Made by a program: the position numbers and the translations under genes. A stretch of DNA of 64,000 bases from Streptomyces sp. AM 4-1-1 (GTDB taxonomy: Bacteria; Actinomycetota; Actinomycetes; Streptomycetales; Streptomycetaceae): contig NZ_CP119145.1 of NCBI RefSeq assembly GCF_029167625.1, forward strand, positions 4,526,001-4,590,000, in the 5' to 3' direction. Numbering within the stretch: the stretch's first letter is position 1; each line of letters opens with the position of its first letter. This document shows positions 19,002 through 49,219 of the stretch, piece by piece. The notes beneath the pieces were generated by a model. That model had not been told where the DNA came from. It did no database searches and worked only from the letters and a program-made list of their open reading frames with translations.

Positions 19002-19248
19002 CGACACCTCTCCTTCGTGCGGGTATGAGTGTGCCGCGTTGCCGGGCCGCTGGTCCACTCGTACGGGTGGGACGGTCGTCACACTGTTGCGCCGTCCCAC
19101 TGTTGTGCCCTAGCTTCGGAATGCGCTGCACAGCATGTCGGGGATACCCGAAGTGCGCTCGCCCGTACGCCAGTTGGGTGCGTATAGGGCGGTCCATGCC
19201 ACGGATGGCAGCGGCGCGTGAGACCGATCCGCGTAGGGAGACCACGAC

Positions 19249-41714: not shown

Positions 41715-44507
41715 TCATGCGGTCGCGGTGGCTCCTCTCGCCGCGTAGGCGCGTACGTCCGCGTCCGGGTCGGCGGTCGCCGAGGCGAGGGCCGACCTGG
41801 CCGGTGCGTGGGCCGGGTGGCGGAGCAGGGCGAGGACCGCGGCCTTGCGCACATCGGCGTTCGGGTCGTCGAGAGCGGCGGCCAGCGCGGGTACGGCCAC
41901 CGCCGGGTCGGCGGCGGCGAGCGCGGTGGCGGCGCCCGCGCGGACCTGCCACGCCCGGTCGGTCAGGGCGGTGACGGCGGCGGTGGCGTACGGCGCCGGG
42001 CACCCCGTCGCGGCCAGCGCGGCGAGCGCGGCGGCCCGGACCAGCGGGTCGTGGTCGTCCAGGAGCGGCGCGAGCGGGCCGGGGCCGGGGGAGCGGACCG
42101 CCGCCAGACCCTTCGCGACCGCCACCCGCACCTCGCGGGACGGGTCGGCGGCGGCCCCCGCCAGTTCGGCGGTGGCGTCGACGGAGACGAGGGCGCGCAC
42201 GGTGTGCGTCCGGACCTCGGCGTCGGGGTCGGTGAGCGTACGGGCGAACAGGGCCGCGTGGCCCAGGCGCAGCGCCCGCAGCGCGTCGAGCGCCGCTGCC
42301 CGTACGACGGGATCGTCCGAGGTGAGCGCGGTGACCAGCGGTGCGCGCAGGGCGGGTTCGGCCGGCAGTACCTCGACCAGTTCCCGGAGTGAGGCCGCCG
42401 CCGCTGCCCGCACGGACGGCGACCGGTCCGAGAGCGTGGCCGCCAGCGCGGGACCGGTGCCCGTCGGGTTCGCCTCGGTGAGCGCGGCGACGGCGGCCCG
42501 GCGGACCGAGGGATCGGGGTCGGCGAGATACGGGGCGAGGGCGGCGAGATCCGGCTGTTCCTCGGCCAGGGCCAGCAGTTCGAGGATGCGCGGGGAGGGG
42601 GCGGCGTCGAGGTCCTGGTCGGTGGTCCCGGGCCCGCGCCGGTCTTCCGGGGGCGCCGGAGGCGGTGTGCCGTGGGTGTCGCCCGTGGCCGGGCGGTCCC
42701 CGAGGTCCGCCGACGCCGTGCGGTCGCGGGTGCCCGCCGTCGCCGTGCGGTCCGGGACGATCTCGCCCAGGTGGCGGGGTTCGCCGCCGACGGGGCTGAA
42801 CTCGTCCACCGGTACGAGGTACGGCTCCACCGGCCGCGCCGTGAACTCCATCGTCCCGACCGGTGACTTGCGCAGGTCCAGATGGTGGAGCCAGCCCTCG
42901 TCGTCCCGCCCCGGATGGTCGGTGCGTTCGTGGTAGAGCCCCCAGCGGGACTCCGTGCGGGCGAGCGAGGAACGGGCCGCCATCTCCGCGCAGTCCCGGA
43001 TGAAGGTGACCTCCGCGCACCGCATCAGCTCGTGCGGGGTCGTGGCCCCCATCTCCGCGATCTCGCCGCGCATCCGCTCGAACGACTCGACGGCGATGGA
43101 GAGCCTGGCGCCGGACTTCGGCGGGGCGACGTAGTCGTTCACGAAGCGGCGCAGCTTGTACTCGACCTGCGGTTGCGGCGGGCCCTCGGGGTTGCGCAGC
43201 GGACGGTAGACGAGTTCGTGGGCCGCCCGCAGCTGGTCGGGCGGCAACTCGCCCTCGTACACCGTGAACCGCGCGGCGTCCGCACCCGCCAGATCGCCGA
43301 AGACGAACGCGCCGATCATGTAGTTGTGCGGTACGCAGGCGAGGTCACCGGCCGCGTACAGGCGCGGCACGGTGGTGCGGGCGTGGTCGTCGACCCGTAC
43401 CCCGGACGCGGAATGGCCGCCGCAGAGGCCGATCTCCGAGATGTGCATCTCGATGTCGTGGGTGCGGTAGTCGTGGCCCCGGTTGGCGTGGAAGGTGGCA
43501 CGGGTGGGGCGTTCGGTGGTGTGCAGGATCGTTTCGAGAGCGGCGACCGACTCCTCGGGGAGATGGCTCAGCTTCAGATAGACCGGGCCCCGGTCGGAGG
43601 CCAGTTCCTCGGCGAACTCGGCCATCATCTGCCCCGACCAGTAGTCGGAGTCGACGAAGCGTTCGCCGTGCCGGTTGACCTGGTAACCACCGAACGGGTT
43701 GGCCACGTAGGCGCACGCCGGACCGTTGTAGTCCTTGATCAGCGGGTTGATCTGGAAGCACTCGATGCCGGTCAGTTCGGCGCCCGCGTGATAGGCCATG
43801 GCGTAGCCGTCGCCCGCGTTGGTGGGGTTCTCGTACGTACCGTAGAGATATCCCGAGGCGGGCAGCCCGAGGCGTCCGCAGGCGCCGGTGGCGAGGATGA
43901 CGGCTCCGGCGCGCACGGTGACGAAGCGGCCGGTACGGGTGTTGAAGCCGGCCGCTCCGACGGCCCGGCCGTCGTCGCCGGTGAGGACGCGGACCGGCAT
44001 CACGCGGTTCTCGATCCGGATGCGTTCGCGCATCTCGCGGCGGCGCAACTGCCGGTACAGGACCTTCTTGACGTCCTTGCCCTCCGGCATCGGCAGCACG
44101 TACGAACCGGAGCGGTGCACCTGGCGCACGGCGTACTCGCCGTGTTCGTCCTTCTCGAACTTCACGCCGTACGACTCCAGCCGGCGCACCATGTCGAAGC
44201 CGCGCGTCGCGGTCTGCCGGACGGTGGACTGGTCGACGATGCCGTCGTTGGCGCGGGTGATCTCGGCGACGTAGTCGTCGGGTTCGGCCCGGCCGGGGAT
44301 CACGGCGTTGTTGACCCCGTCCATGCCCATGGCGAGGGCCCCGGAGTGGCGTACGTGGGCCTTCTCCAGGAGGAGGACGGAGGAGCCGTTCTCGGCGGCG
44401 GTGAGCGCCGCCATGGTGCCGGCCGTGCCGCCCCCGATGACCAGGACGTCACAGCTCAGTTCCTCGGCGTCGGTGAGGGCGGGGATGCGCACGGTCGGGC
44501 CTTTCAC
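41715..44507 (-). CDS. AprA/SdhA-like FAD flavoprotein fused to a HEAT-repeat solenoid
   Basis: A 930-residue two-part protein. Residues about 1-590 form an SdhA/FrdA/AprA-type flavoprotein: FAD loop VLVIGGGTAGTMAAL near 21, NAGDGYAMAYHAGAEL, the family segment RLYAAGDLACVPHNYMIG, and a helical C-terminal part. A Pro/Asp-rich linker follows. About 640-930 is a run of nine HEAT/PBS-lyase-type repeats of ~31-36 residues, each with DPDxxVRxAAxxAL. With the AprB-like ferredoxin of the same operon it suggests an adenylylsulfate-reductase-like or related two-subunit redox enzyme; the HEAT domain may bind a partner. GTG 44507 overlaps the ATPase stop; GTG a few codons later is possible. Substrate unknown. 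Confidence 0.88.
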   Translation of the reverse strand: MKGPTVRIPALTDAEELSCDVLVIGGGTAGTMAALTAAENGSSVLLLEKAHVRHSGALAMGMDGVNNAVIPGRAEPDDYVAEITRANDGIVDQSTVRQTATRGFDMVRRLESYGVKFEKDEHGEYAVRQVHRSGSYVLPMPEGKDVKKVLYRQLRRREMRERIRIENRVMPVRVLTGDDGRAVGAAGFNTRTGRFVTVRAGAVILATGACGRLGLPASGYLYGTYENPTNAGDGYAMAYHAGAELTGIECFQINPLIKDYNGPACAYVANPFGGYQVNRHGERFVDSDYWSGQMMAEFAEELASDRGPVYLKLSHLPEESVAALETILHTTERPTRATFHANRGHDYRTHDIEMHISEIGLCGGHSASGVRVDDHARTTVPRLYAAGDLACVPHNYMIGAFVFGDLAGADAARFTVYEGELPPDQLRAAHELVYRPLRNPEGPPQPQVEYKLRRFVNDYVAPPKSGARLSIAVESFERMRGEIAEMGATTPHELMRCAEVTFIRDCAEMAARSSLARTESRWGLYHERTDHPGRDDEGWLHHLDLRKSPVGTMEFTARPVEPYLVPVDEFSPVGGEPRHLGEIVPDRTATAGTRDRTASADLGDRPATGDTHGTPPPAPPEDRRGPGTTDQDLDAAPSPRILELLALAEEQPDLAALAPYLADPDPSVRRAAVAALTEANPTGTGPALAATLSDRSPSVRAAAAASLRELVEVLPAEPALRAPLVTALTSDDPVVRAAALDALRALRLGHAALFARTLTDPDAEVRTHTVRALVSVDATAELAGAAADPSREVRVAVAKGLAAVRSPGPGPLAPLLDDHDPLVRAAALAALAATGCPAPYATAAVTALTDRAWQVRAGAATALAAADPAVAVPALAAALDDPNADVRKAAVLALLRHPAHAPARSALASATADPDADVRAYAARGATATA

Positions 44508-45568
44508 TGGGGCTCCCGGGACGGGGGCGGCGGAGGGGGAAGGGGAGGAGACGCCGGCGAGGTCGGGACGGGGGGTGGGGCTTCCGGAGCCGTGGAAGGT
44601 GCGGTTCCGGAGGCCGCGGTCGCCGGGGCTCCGGGGAGCGCCGAGGTCAGCGACGCGAGGACTTCGCGGCGCAGGGCGACGGTCGCCGGGTGGCCGTGCG
44701 CGGCACGTTCACGCGGACGCGGTACGTCGAGCACCCGGCCCGTGGAGAGCAGCGCGACCCGGTCGCCCAGGAACACCGCCTCGTCCACGTCGTGCGTGAC
44801 GAACACGACGGTGGCGCCCGTGCCCCGCCACACGTCGACCAGCAACTGCTGCGTGGCGGCCCTGGTCTGCGCGTCGAGCGCGCCGAACGGCTCGTCCATC
44901 AGCACGGCCCGGGGTTCGGCCACCAGGGCGCGGGCGAGCTGGACGCGCTGACGCTGCCCGCCGGAGAGCCGGTGCGGCGGCTTCGCGCCGTGACCGTCCA
45001 GGCCGACCCGGGTCAGCCAGTGTTCGGCGCGCTCCCGGCGCTCAGCGCGGGCCACGCCCCGGATGGCGAGGGGGAGTTCGACGTTCGCCCGGACCGTGCG
45101 CCATGGCAGCAGCGCGTCGTCCTGGAAGACGAGCGCCCGGTCGGCGTGCGGTCCGGTGATCGGCTCGCCGTCCTGGTGGACCTCGCCGTCGAGCGCGGGC
45201 AGCAGCCCGGCGAGGGTCCGCAGCAAAGTCGACTTCCCGCAGCCGGACGGGCCGACGACGGTGAGGATCTCGCCCGGCTCGACATCGAGGCCGATCCGGT
45301 CGAGCACCGGCACGGAACCCCGGCCGACGGCGGCCCCGCGCAGGGTGAGGCGGACGCCGCGGGGGCCGGTGCCGGTGCCCTTCACCGTGTCCGGGGTGCC
45401 GGGCCCGGACCTGCTTCCGGATACGGCTCCGGGCCCGGTCCCGGCTTCGGCGTGGGAACCCGCCGTCGGACGCGCCGCGCTGTTCATCGTGTCCGCCATG
45501 CTCCCCGTCGTGCTTCCCGTCGTGCTCTCTGTCGTGTTCTTCGTGTTCTTCGTGGTGGTCCTGGTCAT
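44504..45568 (-). CDS. ABC transporter ATP-binding protein (nitrate/sulfonate/taurine type)
   Basis: A 354-residue ATPase. Walker A GPSGCGKSTLL, Q-loop FQDDALLPWR, signature LSGGQRQRVQLARAL, Walker B VLMDEPFGALD and H-loop THDVDEAVFLGD are all present. Its FQDDALLPW and early EAVFLGD wording is typical of SsuB/TauB/NrtD importers. An ~80-residue Thr/Ser/Gly-rich N-terminal extension and a Pro-rich C-terminal tail are unusual; a later ATG (MADTM or MNSAARP) may be the true start. The ATG at 45568 overlaps the permease stop (ATGA). Confidence 0.92.
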   Translation of the reverse strand: MTRTTTKNTKNTTESTTGSTTGSMADTMNSAARPTAGSHAEAGTGPGAVSGSRSGPGTPDTVKGTGTGPRGVRLTLRGAAVGRGSVPVLDRIGLDVEPGEILTVVGPSGCGKSTLLRTLAGLLPALDGEVHQDGEPITGPHADRALVFQDDALLPWRTVRANVELPLAIRGVARAERRERAEHWLTRVGLDGHGAKPPHRLSGGQRQRVQLARALVAEPRAVLMDEPFGALDAQTRAATQQLLVDVWRGTGATVVFVTHDVDEAVFLGDRVALLSTGRVLDVPRPRERAAHGHPATVALRREVLASLTSALPGAPATAASGTAPSTAPEAPPPVPTSPASPPLPPPPPPSREPQ

Positions 45569-46521
45569 GGGCGCACCCGCTCCTGTGCGGTACGTACCGG
45601 GAGCCGGCCCTCGGCCGCCGGGGCCGGCACCGGGACCGGGGGTACGGCCCGGCGCCGTACGGGGGCGGCCGGGCGGCTCTCCGTACGCGGCAGCCACCGC
45701 GTCAGCCGGCGGCCCAGCAGTTCCACCGCCGTCGAGGTCAGCCGGCCCAGCACACCGATCGTGACCATGCCGACGAAGACCCCCGGATAGTCGACGACCG
45801 TGTAGTCCTGCCAGGTGCGGTACCCCACCCCGTACTCGCCGGAGATCATCTCCGCCGAGATCACACAGATCCAGGACACCCCGATGCCGACCGAGAGCCC
45901 GCCCAGGATGCCGGGGAGCGCGCCCGGCAGCACCACCGAGGCGAGCACCCGCCACCGGCCGCCACCCATCGTCAGGACCGCCTCCTCCCACACCGGGGTC
46001 AGCGCGCGCACCGCGTGCCGCGTCGAGACCATGACCGGGAAGAACGCCGCCGCGCAGGTGATGAAGACGATGCCCTGCTCGTTGCTGGGGAAGAGCAGGA
46101 TCGCCACCGGCACCAGCGCGATGGCGGGCACCGGGCGCACCACTTCCAGGACCGGGTCGAGCAGATCGGCCGCCAGGGCGGACCTGGCGATGGCCGTGCC
46201 GACCACGATCCCCAGGACGGAGGCGAGCGCGAAACCGGTGACGATCCTGCTCAGACTGTCGGTGACGTCCTGCCAGTACGTGTCGTCGCCCAGCCGGTCG
46301 CCGAAGGCGCGGGCGATGTCGACGACGGTCGGGAACTGCTCGAACCGCAACCACAGACTGACGTCCAGGGCGGTGAGCAGCTGCCACAGCCCCAGCGCGG
46401 CCAGTACGGACAGGACCCGCCGTACGAACGACCATCGTACGAACGACCGCCCTGCGAACGAGCGCCTGGCCAACAGCCGCCCCGCGAACGGCCGCCCCGC
46501 CAGCGGCCTGCGCGCGCTCAT
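45565..46521 (-). CDS. ABC transporter permease (SsuC/TauC type)
   Basis: A 318-residue inner-membrane protein with about six helices. The coupling segment EEAVLTMGGGRWRVLASVVL followed by PGALPGILGGL matches the EAA loop. The SWICVISAEMISGEYGVGY stretch is typical of sulfonate/nitrate importers. The first ~35 residues are Arg-rich imperfect repeats (GRPFAGR, GRSFVR). A Pro/Arg C-terminal tail follows the last helix. The start overlaps the binding-protein stop. Confidence 0.93.
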   Translation of the reverse strand: MSARRPLAGRPFAGRLLARRSFAGRSFVRWSFVRRVLSVLAALGLWQLLTALDVSLWLRFEQFPTVVDIARAFGDRLGDDTYWQDVTDSLSRIVTGFALASVLGIVVGTAIARSALAADLLDPVLEVVRPVPAIALVPVAILLFPSNEQGIVFITCAAAFFPVMVSTRHAVRALTPVWEEAVLTMGGGRWRVLASVVLPGALPGILGGLSVGIGVSWICVISAEMISGEYGVGYRTWQDYTVVDYPGVFVGMVTIGVLGRLTSTAVELLGRRLTRWLPRTESRPAAPVRRRAVPPVPVPAPAAEGRLPVRTAQERVRP

Positions 46522-47891
46522 GAGGCGGGAGCCCCGGCGACGGCCAGTGCGGTGGCGTAGGGGACGACACGGGAGCCGGGCCGCCCCGCCAGGTACGCCC
46601 GCGCCGCCGACTCGGTGACGTACGGCCGAAGTTCGGAGCCGTCCGCGACCCAGACCGCCCGGTCGGCGAACCAGAGCGTGCCCGTCGTCGCGTCGTGGAC
46701 GTACGCCGCCCGCACCTCGTCCCGGTGCGCGGCGACGTACCGCAGCAGTTCGGCCGGTGTGGCGAACGACCGCGTGGTGTCCGCGCCCTTGAGCCAGACC
46801 TCGCCGCGCGCGGCGGGCGGTCCCGCGGCGAGCGCCGTGGCGTAGGCGGAGCCGTACACCTTCTTCACGTACCGGTCGTCGACGAACGCGTCCACGTCCA
46901 CCTCGTCGACCAGCTCCGCCGAACGCAGCACCGGTACGTCCGCCTTCAACGCCGCCACCAGGGACGGTTTCAGCGTCGGGTCGAACGTGGCGATGCCCTG
47001 TGACCCGTTGTAGAGGTGGACGACCTCGGCGGGCAGCCCGGTCTCCTTAGCCACCGACTCGGCCGACGCCACCGGGTGCCGGCGCAGTTCGTCCGTCGCG
47101 CGGCGCTGCGCCCGCAGGAAGTCCTCCAGCACGGCGGGCCGCCTCTTCGCGAAGTCCTCACGGACGGTGACCCCGTGGAAGGTCGGCAGGTCCAGCTCCG
47201 CGCCGTCGTACAGCGCCTTCGCCCGGCCCTGGAAGGCCAGCAGCCCCGGCCAGGCCACGAACTGCGACAGTGCGTCGGCGCTGCCCGCCTGGAGCGCCGA
47301 AGCGCCCACGGCGGGCTGCTGGTTGAGCTTGCGGATGTCCTTGTCCGGGTCGAGCCCGGCCTGTCGGAGGGCGCGTACGAGCGTGCCGTCGGCGGCCGAT
47401 CCGATGCTGGTGGACACCTTCGCGCCACGCAGGTCCGTCAGCGAGGCGAGCTTCGAATCCGGTGCGGTGACCACGGTGTTGAGGCCGCCGCGCAGGTTGT
47501 AGCCGGTCACCGAGACGAGCTTGGTGGGGCGGTGCAGCTGTGCGCCCCGGGCCGCGTTGATCAGCAGCGGGAAGTCGCCCATCGAACCGATGTCGATCTT
47601 CCCGGCGGTCATCTGCGCGGTGATCGGGGCGCCGGTCGCGTAGTCCTGCCATTTCACCCGGTACGTGTGTCCGTCACGCGCGCCCCGGGCGCGCAGCTCC
47701 TCCTCGAAGTAGCCGAGGGAGCGCAGCAGGGTGCCGGCCGTGACGGTGTTGATGGTCCTGGACTGGTAGCCGACGGTCACCGTGACCGTGTGTCCGCCGT
47801 CCGCGCCCGCCTCGCCGCCGCAGCCCGTCGCGAGGGGGACCAGCAGGGCGGCGGTGAGCAGGGCGCCGGTGCGGGATGCCGTGCGTCGCAT
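46518..47891 (-). CDS. ABC substrate-binding lipoprotein with C-terminal NosL-like domain
   Basis: A 457-residue exported lipoprotein. Signal peptide MRRTASRTGALLTAALLV ends in lipobox LATGC with Cys24. Residues about 35-355 are a TauA/SsuA-type binding protein (TVGYQSRTINTVTAGTLLR, AQMTAGKIDIGSMGDFPLL, KVSTSIGSAADGTLVRAL). The last ~95 residues form a separate domain reading AAYVHDATTGTLWFADRAVW then AARAYLAGRPG. This matches the NosL pattern (copper/nitrous-oxide-reductase accessory family), though the usual Met ligands are not obvious. The fusion suggests a second ligand or metal handled at the cell surface. It lies 15 nt after the ferredoxin gene. Confidence 0.88.
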   Translation of the reverse strand: MRRTASRTGALLTAALLVPLATGCGGEAGADGGHTVTVTVGYQSRTINTVTAGTLLRSLGYFEEELRARGARDGHTYRVKWQDYATGAPITAQMTAGKIDIGSMGDFPLLINAARGAQLHRPTKLVSVTGYNLRGGLNTVVTAPDSKLASLTDLRGAKVSTSIGSAADGTLVRALRQAGLDPDKDIRKLNQQPAVGASALQAGSADALSQFVAWPGLLAFQGRAKALYDGAELDLPTFHGVTVREDFAKRRPAVLEDFLRAQRRATDELRRHPVASAESVAKETGLPAEVVHLYNGSQGIATFDPTLKPSLVAALKADVPVLRSAELVDEVDVDAFVDDRYVKKVYGSAYATALAAGPPAARGEVWLKGADTTRSFATPAELLRYVAAHRDEVRAAYVHDATTGTLWFADRAVWVADGSELRPYVTESAARAYLAGRPGSRVVPYATALAVAGAPAS

Positions 47892-47906
47892 GGGGGTGGG
47901 GGCCTT

Positions 47907-48134
47907 TCACCTGAGGAGGTAGGGCATGTTGACCGTGACCGCGTCGGTGGGGCACCGGGCCGCGCACGGGCCGCAGTACCAGCACTCGTCGACGTGCATG
48001 TACGCCTTGCCGCTGTCCGGGTCGATGGCGAGGGAGTCGAGCGGGCACATGTCGACGCAGAGCGTGCAGCCGTCGATGCACTTCGACTCGTCGATGGTCA
48101 CGGGCACGTCGGCCCGCTGGGGTGCCAGAGGCAT
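47907..48134 (-). CDS. AprB-like 2x[4Fe-4S] ferredoxin
   Basis: A 75-residue protein. ATG 48134 follows CTGGAG. Cluster ligands are CIDGCTLCVDMCP and CWYCGPCAARCP. The DECWYC segment, followed by a short C-terminal beta strand (AVTVNMPYLLR), resembles AprB, the electron-transfer subunit of adenylylsulfate reductases. AprB usually has a longer C-terminal tail that wraps AprA; this one lacks it. It is the first gene of the importer/flavoprotein operon and likely carries electrons to or from the flavoprotein. Confidence 0.9.
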   Translation of the reverse strand: MPLAPQRADVPVTIDESKCIDGCTLCVDMCPLDSLAIDPDSGKAYMHVDECWYCGPCAARCPTDAVTVNMPYLLR

Positions 48135-48244
48135 GGCGGTCTCCAGGGAAGGGGTCGGGGAGGGTTCGGGAAGCGGCGGGGCGGCGGGGCCCAGCGGTCC
48201 GGGATACGGGACACGGGAGGCGGGGTCCGGTCTCCCGCGTGGCG

Positions 48245-49024
48245 TCAGGCGGGGGCCGCCGCGCGGTGGAGGAGGGCGCTCATGCTGATGCGGTCACCCC
48301 GGAAGCGGATGAACTCCAGGTCGACGGGGCGTCCGTCGGAGAGATGGGTGAGGCGTTCCAGCATCAGCACGGCGGAACCGCGCGGGGTCTCCAGGACGGT
48401 CGCGGAGTGCGCGTCGGCGTTGACGGCCTCCAGGGTGATCTCGGCGGCGCCGAGGGTCCGGCCGGTGAGCGATTCCAGCAGCCGGAACACATCGGTGTTC
48501 TCCAGGTCGCTGCCGAGCAGTCCCGCGCCGATGTCCATCGGGATGTAGGTGAGGTCGAGCGAGAGCGGCAGGCCGTTCAGCAGCCTGCGCCGCTCGATGT
48601 AGAGCACGTCGGTGTGCTCGGCGATCCCGAGCCGGCGGGCGACGGGTGCGGGCGCGGGTACCGGCCCGACCGTACGGACCTCGTTGGTGACCCTGCCGTG
48701 CTCACGCAGGGTCTCCGCCAGGCCCTGGAGCCGGTCCAGGCCGTGCGGGTACTTCTCGCAGACGACGACCGTGCCGACCCCCGGCTGCCGGTCGACGAGC
48801 CCTTCGGCGCGCAGCAGGTCGAGCGCCTGACGGACGGTGTTGCGGGAGACCCGGTAGTCGGCGCCGATGATGTCCTCGTACGGCAGGACGCCACCCGGGA
48901 AGCCGCCCGTGCGCACCTGGTGGCGCAGCAGGTCGGCGAGGAGCCGGGCACCGTCCGCGCGCAGCCGCCGGCGGCGGGCGGCGGCGACGGGCACGGTGTG
49001 CTCGCGGATGCGTTCGGGTGGCAT
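48245..49024 (-). CDS. GntR-family transcriptional regulator (HutC-type)
   Basis: A 259-residue regulator. The N-terminal winged helix (about 20-90) contains the GntR recognition region DYRVSRNTVRQALDLLRAEG. The C-terminal ~150 residues are a UTRA/chorismate-lyase-like ligand domain (PLSLDLTYIP, then a beta-rich end). ATG 49024 is preferred over 49036 because a -10-like box lies 7 nt upstream, making the transcript leaderless. It sits 110 bp upstream of the ferredoxin gene on the same strand and probably controls the importer/flavoprotein operon in response to its substrate. Confidence 0.92.
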   Translation of the reverse strand: MPPERIREHTVPVAAARRRRLRADGARLLADLLRHQVRTGGFPGGVLPYEDIIGADYRVSRNTVRQALDLLRAEGLVDRQPGVGTVVVCEKYPHGLDRLQGLAETLREHGRVTNEVRTVGPVPAPAPVARRLGIAEHTDVLYIERRRLLNGLPLSLDLTYIPMDIGAGLLGSDLENTDVFRLLESLTGRTLGAAEITLEAVNADAHSATVLETPRGSAVLMLERLTHLSDGRPVDLEFIRFRGDRISMSALLHRAAAPA

Positions 49025-49031
49025 GGGGTGG

Positions 49032-49075
49032 ACCATACCGACGCTGTCCCGACGGTGGTGTTGCCACAGTGTTGC
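49032..49075 (-). promoter_or_regulatory. gntR promoter with GTGTTGC direct repeats (candidate operator)
   Basis: On the minus strand TATGGT (49032-49037) is a good -10. Two GTGTTGC copies on the plus strand at 49058-49064 and 49069-49075, 11 bp apart, overlap the expected -35 zone. They could be an autoregulatory operator; unproven. Confidence 0.4.
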
Positions 49076-49135
49076 GCCACTGACGGACCCGCGCAGCACC
49101 GCGCTGACCTGCGGTTGTGCCCGGCCGAGGAGGCA

Positions 49136-49195
49136 GATCCGCCACCAGGTCCGCCACCGCGTCCGCCACCGGGTCAGCCATCAGGTCCGCCACCG
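49136..49195. repeat. Five tandem 12-bp repeats
   Basis: Units of GGTCCGCCACCG and close variants fill 49136-49195, five in a row, between the gntR gene and the small exported-protein gene. It is a short variable-number-type minisatellite in an intergenic stretch. Confidence 0.8.
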
Positions 49196-49219
49196 CACAG
49201 AGGCCGCCTCCCGGCCGGT

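Follow-up and report, generated by a model that had tools for sequence, protein, structure and literature searches.

Genes and features of the locus

Within the window, by which we mean the whole 64,000-nucleotide stretch of DNA from the soil actinomycete Streptomyces sp. AM 4-1-1 that was analysed, a compact operon encodes a regulator, a ferredoxin, a binding lipoprotein, a permease, an ATPase and a flavoprotein extended by HEAT repeats (Table 1). The original prediction had named an AprB-like ferredoxin, a lipoprotein, a permease, an ATPase and a flavoprotein with a GntR gene upstream, and all six genes are found where it placed them, on the minus strand. Their assignments are backed by Pfam matches, and the genome holds a single copy above the family cut-off. 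Overlaps of 4 bp join the binding-protein gene to the permease gene, the permease gene to the ATPase gene, and the ATPase gene to the flavoprotein gene, and the binding-protein start lies 15 bp past the end of the ferredoxin gene. GC content at third codon positions exceeds 0.9 in the four ORFs for which it was computed (flavoprotein, permease, binding protein and gntR). The operon probably serves the import of a sulfur-containing compound and its processing by an iron-sulfur flavin enzyme.

Table 1. Features of the operon and its upstream region, with positions in the window
Feature	Positions	Strand	Basis
GntR/UTRA regulator at the head of the operon	48245..49024	-	PF00392 and PF07702 above cut-off
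75-aa ferredoxin with two [4Fe-4S] motifs and AprB-like CWYC Trp	47907..48134	-	motifs, Pfam, alignment
Binding lipoprotein, SsuA/TauA-like, whose C-terminal domain (about 46521-46814) is NosL-like	46518..47891	-	profile, fold comparison
ABC permease, SaoP/TauC-like, below those cut-offs	45565..46521	-	PF00528
ABC ATPase, TauB-like, below cut-off	44504..45568	-	PF00005
FAD flavoprotein, AprA/PAPSR-like (about 42783-44507), with a fused HEAT-repeat part (about 41718-42620)	41715..44507	-	NF010374 and NF006131 above cut-off
GGCGCAACA, conserved stretch 5' of gntR, a candidate for an operator or part of a promoter	49070..49078	-	upstream conservation in Streptomyces

The regulator is PhnF/HutC-like, yet scores far below the PhnF and HutC cut-offs. 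Upstream of the operon, GGCGCAACA recurs in 20 of 25 Streptomyces loci and has one further copy in the window, at 19085. Inverted repeats with 6-base arms are absent from the window's stretch upstream of gntR.

The flavoprotein and its ferredoxin

The flavoprotein exceeds the cut-offs of both PRK08275 (NF006131; 855.7 versus 587 bits) and PRK13800 (NF010374; 1627.8 versus 1196 bits), whose names, together with membership in the same superfamily, would make it an aspartate oxidase or an enzyme of the fumarate reductase/succinate dehydrogenase kind. However, the dicarboxylate-site motifs HPT, HYxxGG and ANR are present in Escherichia coli FrdA, SdhA and NadB and in none of 14 family rows, and the flavoprotein scores far below the Frd, Sdh and NadB cut-offs. 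The phylogeny proposed as a check on the original prediction places the flavoprotein with AprA and with MtPAPSR, the APS-reductase-like PAPS reductase of the methanogen Methanothermococcus thermolithotrophicus (8a8o; PMC10322725), on a fork with support of 91/91, apart from fumarate reductases and aspartate oxidases, which together with Sdh form a fork of 89/87; a long-branch warning applies to this tree. A fumarate reductase or aspartate oxidase identity was therefore rejected on motifs and tree placement, and the function in the database name is scarcely credible.

Judged from sequence, the flavoprotein lies on the AprA/PAPS-reductase side, apart from Frd, Sdh and NadB, but is not AprA. It shares the RxE[ST]RWxxY stretch with AprA, but falls far short of the AprA cut-off (TIGR02061, 127.5 versus 641.75 bits), and all 14 family rows have Leu where the Archaeoglobus fulgidus AprA and MtPAPSR rows have Arg, corresponding to AprA R265. 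The ferredoxin likewise misses the AprB cut-off (TIGR02060, 33.4 versus 135.65), and an identification as AprBA proper, as opposed to an AprBA-like pair, is not supported. The ferredoxin's AprB-like character is nonetheless borne out, because all 20 aligned ferredoxins have eight Cys and ECW[YF]C, with an invariant Trp adjoining the second cluster motif; a Trp beside the ferredoxin cluster is the AprB motif. The HEAT repeats span about residues 630-930 of the flavoprotein. The predicted structure of flavoprotein and HEAT part has a mean pLDDT of 66, and its FAD part is mostly unusable.

The importer and its NosL-like tail

By sequence and fold the binding protein (model pLDDT 84) is nearest to SsuA/TauA, and its fold is of the SsuA/TauA type, which upholds the importer part of the original prediction. 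All curated Ssu/Tau cut-offs are missed, at 125.6 versus 163.5 for the binding protein (SsuA_fam), 234.8 versus 357 for the ATPase (TauB) and 117.9 versus 342 for the permease (TauC). A sulfonate is a plausible substrate.

In the binding protein, the NosL-like domain takes up roughly residues 360-457. Although the window protein matches PF05573 weakly (14.8 bits versus a cut-off of 24, E 0.036), the domain is picked up at E <=0.1 in 21 of 27 relatives (best 1.2e-6), and the 27-row binding-protein profile matches NosL 7og7 at E 1e-4. The proteins are 447-488 amino acids long in all 27 aligned. No NosL entry is among the 50 VIA-align rows, which mainly span residues 32-356 and are no counter-evidence. 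The two predicted domain fusions, the NosL-like one with a match under the cut-off in the window, are usual within the family and not the oddity they were thought to be.

Distribution and conserved linkage

Linkage between flavoprotein and ferredoxin is far beyond chance. In every one of the 133 loci surveyed, no more than 9 kb separates the ferredoxin from the flavoprotein, and the same distance takes in HEAT repeats, fused or separate, in 131 loci, a GntR match in 121 loci, the binding protein in 104 and a LysR reference match in 3, the reference proteins having been partly drawn from those loci. This count excludes the short loci L001-L013 and L166-L180, the fragment L190, and L118, whose 366-bit match is PAPSR-like and which has no flavoprotein over threshold. 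Pseudomonas and Burkholderiales are over-represented, because 80 of the 133 loci stem from one scan with a Cupriavidus-led alignment, in which the top-scoring matches were retained.

Of the 29 actinobacterial loci, 27 have the HEAT part fused to the flavoprotein and two have it as a gene of its own; in other bacteria it is joined by DUF971 or Mrp/NBP35. Wherever a plasmid record has the ferredoxin (48 records), it also carries the flavoprotein, and the three flavoprotein plasmid records without a ferredoxin (of 51) are all partial matches, covering 42-50% of the query. Among sampled genomes, the module is present in 64 of 199 from Streptomyces and in 65 of 199 from the genus to which a Pseudomonas putida genome belongs. 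The parts also occur in proteobacteria and cyanobacteria, with cyanobacterial and rhizobial copies on plasmids, and are therefore not peculiar to one actinomycete. Because the ferredoxin is AprB-like, the flavoprotein AprA-side, the importer SsuA/TauA-like and the linkage with ferredoxin and importer conserved, the grouping originally proposed withstands the observations that had been named against it.

Neighbouring genes and the direction of electron flow

The genes next to the module point to sulfur acquisition in a minority of loci, in several lineages. These neighbours, and the nearness of the binding protein to SsuA/TauA in sequence and fold, weigh against a non-sulfur system in which an SsuA-like protein would bind nitrate, bicarbonate, a thiamine precursor or, through NosL, a metal complex, and the flavoprotein would reduce or oxidise that ligand; we consider such a system rather unlikely. 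Neighbour clustering also yields unrelated transport, efflux and regulator genes, and most clusters are limited to one genus. Amidase/GNAT genes adjoin the Methylocystis and Nostoc copies, and the Rhizobium copy adjoins thiamine genes.

In a handful of distinct lineages, again in a minority of loci, the module has genes for FdxA, FNR or 2-oxoacid:ferredoxin oxidoreductase close by, which suggests that electrons enter rather than leave the module; on this ground we favour reduction over oxidation. The original prediction had pointed the other way, to AprBA-like oxidation of sulfite after sulfonate uptake, by analogy with a proposal in print for SAR11 (PMC5864207). That proposal and the AprA/AprB-type anatomy lend it some weight, but the electron-donating partners near some copies, the widely missed AprA and AprB cut-offs, the replacement of Arg by Leu, and the operon itself, in which no sulfate adenylyltransferase gene was seen, make sulfite oxidation very unlikely.

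Relation to Asf

The asf cluster is reported to comprise a binding protein, an ABC transporter, a reductase/ferredoxin and a regulator, and an asfA insertion to abolish the use of aromatic sulfonates while that of aliphatic ones was kept (PMC4267179). The similar parts list raises the possibility that the module is equivalent or identical to Asf, its flavoprotein and ferredoxin feeding an FMNH2-type monooxygenase encoded elsewhere that frees sulfur from aromatic sulfonates. Luciferase-type monooxygenases do occur nearby in five genera, and the genera from which asfA is reported (Variovorax, Cupriavidus, Burkholderia, Pseudomonas and Rhodococcus; PMC9694294) overlap in part with those of the flavoprotein family. 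We first adopted an AsfA identity, and dropped it because the genome of Cupriavidus metallidurans CH34 (G719), an organism reported with AsfAB (PMC2864759), has no match to the flavoprotein family at E 1e-48. A search of its megaplasmid for the dicluster-ferredoxin pattern (600-795 kb and 921-938 kb) gave two hits, one a TcuB-like protein at 795 kb, the other an FAD-protein/ferredoxin pair at 928-930 kb, which belongs to a different family and may or may not be the reported AsfAB; locus-tag arithmetic for the reported proteins fits both poorly. The name AsfA is absent from the fragment matches listed (120 of 1,919), and asf is said to be LysR-regulated, whereas a GntR regulator is found here. 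Equivalence with Asf is thus doubtful, if a serious candidate. Among open-licence papers we found no description of the operon, and passages of PMC7661421 and PMC3596284 do not mention it.

Proposed function

Our preferred reading, to which we give a nearly even chance, is that the operon is a sulfur-scavenging module for import and reduction and does not oxidise sulfite. The SsuA/TauA-type lipoprotein with its NosL-like tail would catch a sulfonate or a comparable sulfur compound before it enters the cell, and uptake would then fall to the permease and ATPase. Low-potential electrons would then pass to the AprB-like ferredoxin, through its two [4Fe-4S] clusters and conserved Trp, to the FAD of the AprA/PAPSR-like subunit, which would reduce or reductively cleave the compound so that its sulfur, as sulfite or in a more reduced state, could be assimilated. 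The HEAT part, with DUF971 or Mrp/NBP35 elsewhere, may aid iron-sulfur loading or complex assembly, and the GntR/UTRA protein probably senses the imported compound or its product.

More broadly, the module could represent a widespread and unnamed class in actinobacteria, proteobacteria and cyanobacteria, in which an AprAB-fold flavoenzyme with its own importer and HEAT, DUF971/Mrp helpers cleaves or reduces imported sulfonates, and so liberates their sulfur, with low-potential electrons from ferredoxin instead of oxygen and FMNH2; this generalisation is unlikely as it stands. Much of the organic sulfur in soil is reported to be in sulfonates (PMC4267179), and reductive sulfur release from organosulfonates, if true, would bring a further type of enzyme into the soil sulfur cycle. 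Widespread as it is, the module is labelled only by a misleading fumarate-reductase name. It offers testable cases both of an AprA/PAPSR fold put to new use and of a single iron-sulfur flavoenzyme that is accompanied by HEAT and DUF971 helpers of its own.

Comparison with known systems

The flavoprotein belongs with PRK13800/PRK08275 by score, but the fumarate reductase/SDH label of that family is unsupported by motifs. With AprBA the module shares the anatomy of FAD and two [4Fe-4S] clusters, RxE[ST]RWxxY, and the AprB motif, a Trp beside the ferredoxin cluster; it differs in scores far out of reach of the AprA and AprB cut-offs and in Leu in place of the AprA Arg. SsuABC and TauABC are alike in binding-protein fold and in type of permease and ATPase, whereas here the binding protein has a NosL-like tail and scores stay below the curated cut-offs. 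The asfRABC genes of Pseudomonas putida S-313 match in their list of reductase, ferredoxin, binding protein and ABC transporter (PMC4267179), but differ in a LysR instead of a GntR/UTRA regulator, and CH34, the reported bearer of AsfAB, has no member of the flavoprotein family.

The FAD alpha subunit of MtPAPSR belongs to the same superfamily, and the family profile matches it along its whole length at 263 bits; its beta subunit, as reported, is ferredoxin-like and carries two [4Fe-4S] clusters as well as a Trp to which a part in electron transfer is ascribed as a proposal (PMC10322725). According to the same report, its reverse, sulfite-consuming reaction was not measurable, and reduced ferredoxin is suggested as a possible donor. 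The family described here forms a separate clade, has Leu (NPLIKD) for the Arg of ALRVKD in MtPAPSR, and, unlike MtPAPSR, is tied to an importer, HEAT repeats and a GntR regulator.

Operon structure and upstream elements

The original prediction described an importer joined to an AprAB-like redox operon, and a six-gene arrangement of this kind is confirmed in the window (see table). Three 4-bp overlaps and one 15-bp gap suggest a single transcript from the ferredoxin gene onward. The 7.47-Mb host genome carries one copy of the flavoprotein family above the curated NCBIfam cut-off, and the nearest named relatives of the window flavoprotein are from Streptomyces.

The element GGCGCAACA is common to 20 of 25 Streptomyces loci; a second GGCAACACC often comes after it, with TATGGT farther along. 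It is a candidate operator or promoter.

Coordinates of features in the window and at surveyed loci
Feature	Position	Strand	Description
Six-gene operon	window 49024 to 41715	minus	head to tail: GntR/UTRA regulator, 75-aa ferredoxin, binding lipoprotein, permease, ATPase, flavoprotein+HEAT
GGCGCAACA	window 49070-49078	minus	5' of gntR
Repeats of GGTGGCGGA type	window ~49115-49210		short, imperfect, seen by eye; upstream of gntR promoter region
A. caldus protein	locus L021 (plasmid pTcM1) 10574-14032		1153 aa; after FdxA, downstream of module
CH34 FAD-protein	locus L208 6882-8863 (megaplasmid 927.9-929.9 kb)		different FAD-protein + ferredoxin family

Distribution and gene associations

Using tblastn of reference proteins, we surveyed 133 loci in 28 genera or groups, and the module's genes are linked. 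Within 9 kb we detect ferredoxin (133 loci), HEAT (131), GntR (121), ATPase (109), permease (104) and the binding protein, SBP (104), and less frequently DUF971 (83), Crp (7), LysR (3) and Mrp (3); SBP is absent within 9 kb at 29 of the surveyed loci. The most frequent order is gntR-flavoprotein-ferredoxin-SBP-permease-ATPase-HEAT-DUF971 (41 loci), 24 loci have the actinobacterial order found in the window, and 15 have gntR-flavoprotein-ferredoxin-HEAT-DUF971. Five genes separate flavoprotein from ferredoxin in Nostoc. Among plasmid records, the flavoprotein occurs in 51 and the ferredoxin in 48, all 48 containing both; the other three are partial matches.

Nine of 296 genomes sampled from the window's phylum match at E 1e-100, eight of them above the cut-off. 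The family is present in 64 of 199 sampled Streptomyces genomes. Counts in the genera of a P. putida and a Cupriavidus genome are 65 of 199 (in three of these the match is split into two frames) and 15 of 60 (14 above the cut-off), respectively. This uneven distribution suggests that the module is an accessory trait that can be transferred. The flavoprotein copies with split matches (genomes G524, G569 and G640) look broken.

Relationship of the redox proteins to AprAB

The flavoprotein scores above the curated cut-offs of both NF010374 and NF006131. Its only name, "fumarate reductase/succinate dehydrogenase flavoprotein subunit", is the label of these two families. The closest solved chain to a profile built from eight family members is the alpha subunit of Methanothermococcus thermolithotrophicus PAPS reductase (MtPAPSR; 263 bits), followed by A. 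fulgidus AprA (191) and SDH (140). In a 22-row tree, for which the tool flags long branches and AprA was entered as two pieces, the family is monophyletic (95/95) and joins AprA/PAPSR at 91/91; E. coli FrdA, SdhA and NadB and the host's SDH-type protein lie apart (89/87). The dicarboxylate motifs of FrdA/SdhA/NadB are absent from all 14 aligned family rows, and RxE[ST]RWxxY is common to the family, AprA and MtPAPSR.

AprA itself is ruled out: the score is far under the AprA cut-off, and an Arg of AprA and MtPAPSR, R265 in A. fulgidus AprA, is Leu in the family, within NPL[IM]KDYNGP. Because identity between the window flavoprotein and proteobacterial or cyanobacterial members is 55-60%, conservation across phyla makes a specific substrate likely.

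All 20 aligned ferredoxins have eight cysteines and ECW[YF]C. The MtPAPSR beta subunit is described as carrying two [4Fe-4S] clusters, together with a Trp for which a part in electron transfer is proposed (PMC10322725). An AprAB-type electron path is therefore probably kept.

Possible electron supply and iron-sulfur loading

FdxA and ferredoxin-NADP reductase (FNR) genes neighbor the module in Methylobacterium and Variovorax, as do FdxA and a Pyr_redox_2 protein in A. caldus. Two Streptomyces copies with unfused HEAT have genes for an FdxA-like ferredoxin and 2-oxoacid:ferredoxin oxidoreductase nearby, with ~1 kb intervening at one. Counts are small (FdxA-like 6 and FNR 2 of 133 loci), and these separate lineages agree in pointing to electrons being fed into the module.

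Pyr_redox_2 is the sole Pfam match of the 1153-aa A. caldus protein, most of which is unmatched at E 1e-6. Loci L146 and L148, from two genomes of the window's genus, represent a second locus type in which flavoprotein and HEAT are encoded separately. Upstream lie LysR and a YeiH-type gene; downstream are genes for an FdxA-like ferredoxin and 2-oxoacid:ferredoxin oxidoreductase. A window-type copy is additionally present in one of the two genomes.

DUF971 carries CxCxxC at 79 of 83 loci. A paper on HCF101, an Nbp35-like iron-sulfur protein, describes a C-terminal DUF971 with the same motif and terms the domain's function elusive (PMC7980591). Cyanobacterial copies have Mrp/NBP35 where others have DUF971. 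Given this likeness and substitution, we infer that HEAT and DUF971/Mrp act in iron-sulfur loading; a role for the NosL-like tail is likewise putative.

Sulfur-related neighbors and comparison with known systems

Some neighbors are minority features that we picked out, with no background count: sulfite or sulfate exporter-type genes (two cyanobacteria, one Aquabacterium, two Streptomyces), luciferase-type monooxygenases (five genera), type-2A encapsulin genes ~9 kb or less away (L064, L070, L075, L103 and L107; Paraburkholderia, Burkholderia and Acinetobacter), and a second FAD-protein family in S. americanum and S. fredii. Elsewhere, this second family is accompanied by a ferredoxin and an SBP of its own and by sulfur genes such as cysDN. 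The genes of the module, their folds, their linkage and their kinship are established. Our preferred reading, placed just short of an even chance, is a sulfur-scavenging import and reduction unit, with substrate and direction both putative.

The original interpretation stands in part: the importer and AprAB-related proteins hold, and the evidence here does not favor the role of SAR11 AprBA, reported as a possible sulfite-detoxifying step following taurine use (PMC5864207).

This second FAD-protein family, with its ferredoxin, also occurs in C. metallidurans CH34 and at loci L219-L222. Its CH34 megaplasmid FAD-protein scores only 56 bits against PRK08275; the family is found in 59 plasmid records, with SBP/ABC and sulfur genes nearby, and could be the true Asf family. 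The S. fredii copy adjoins the module in three pieces and is missing from the gene table.

The module could instead be Asf. CH34 is said to contain AsfAB (PMC2864759); its genome has no match to our family, and the reported pair could not be placed in it. Asf is therefore a rival and close analogue whose identity with the module is not established. In P. putida S-313, the asf genes encode a comparable set of components and are proven to act in the use of aromatic sulfonates (PMC4267179).
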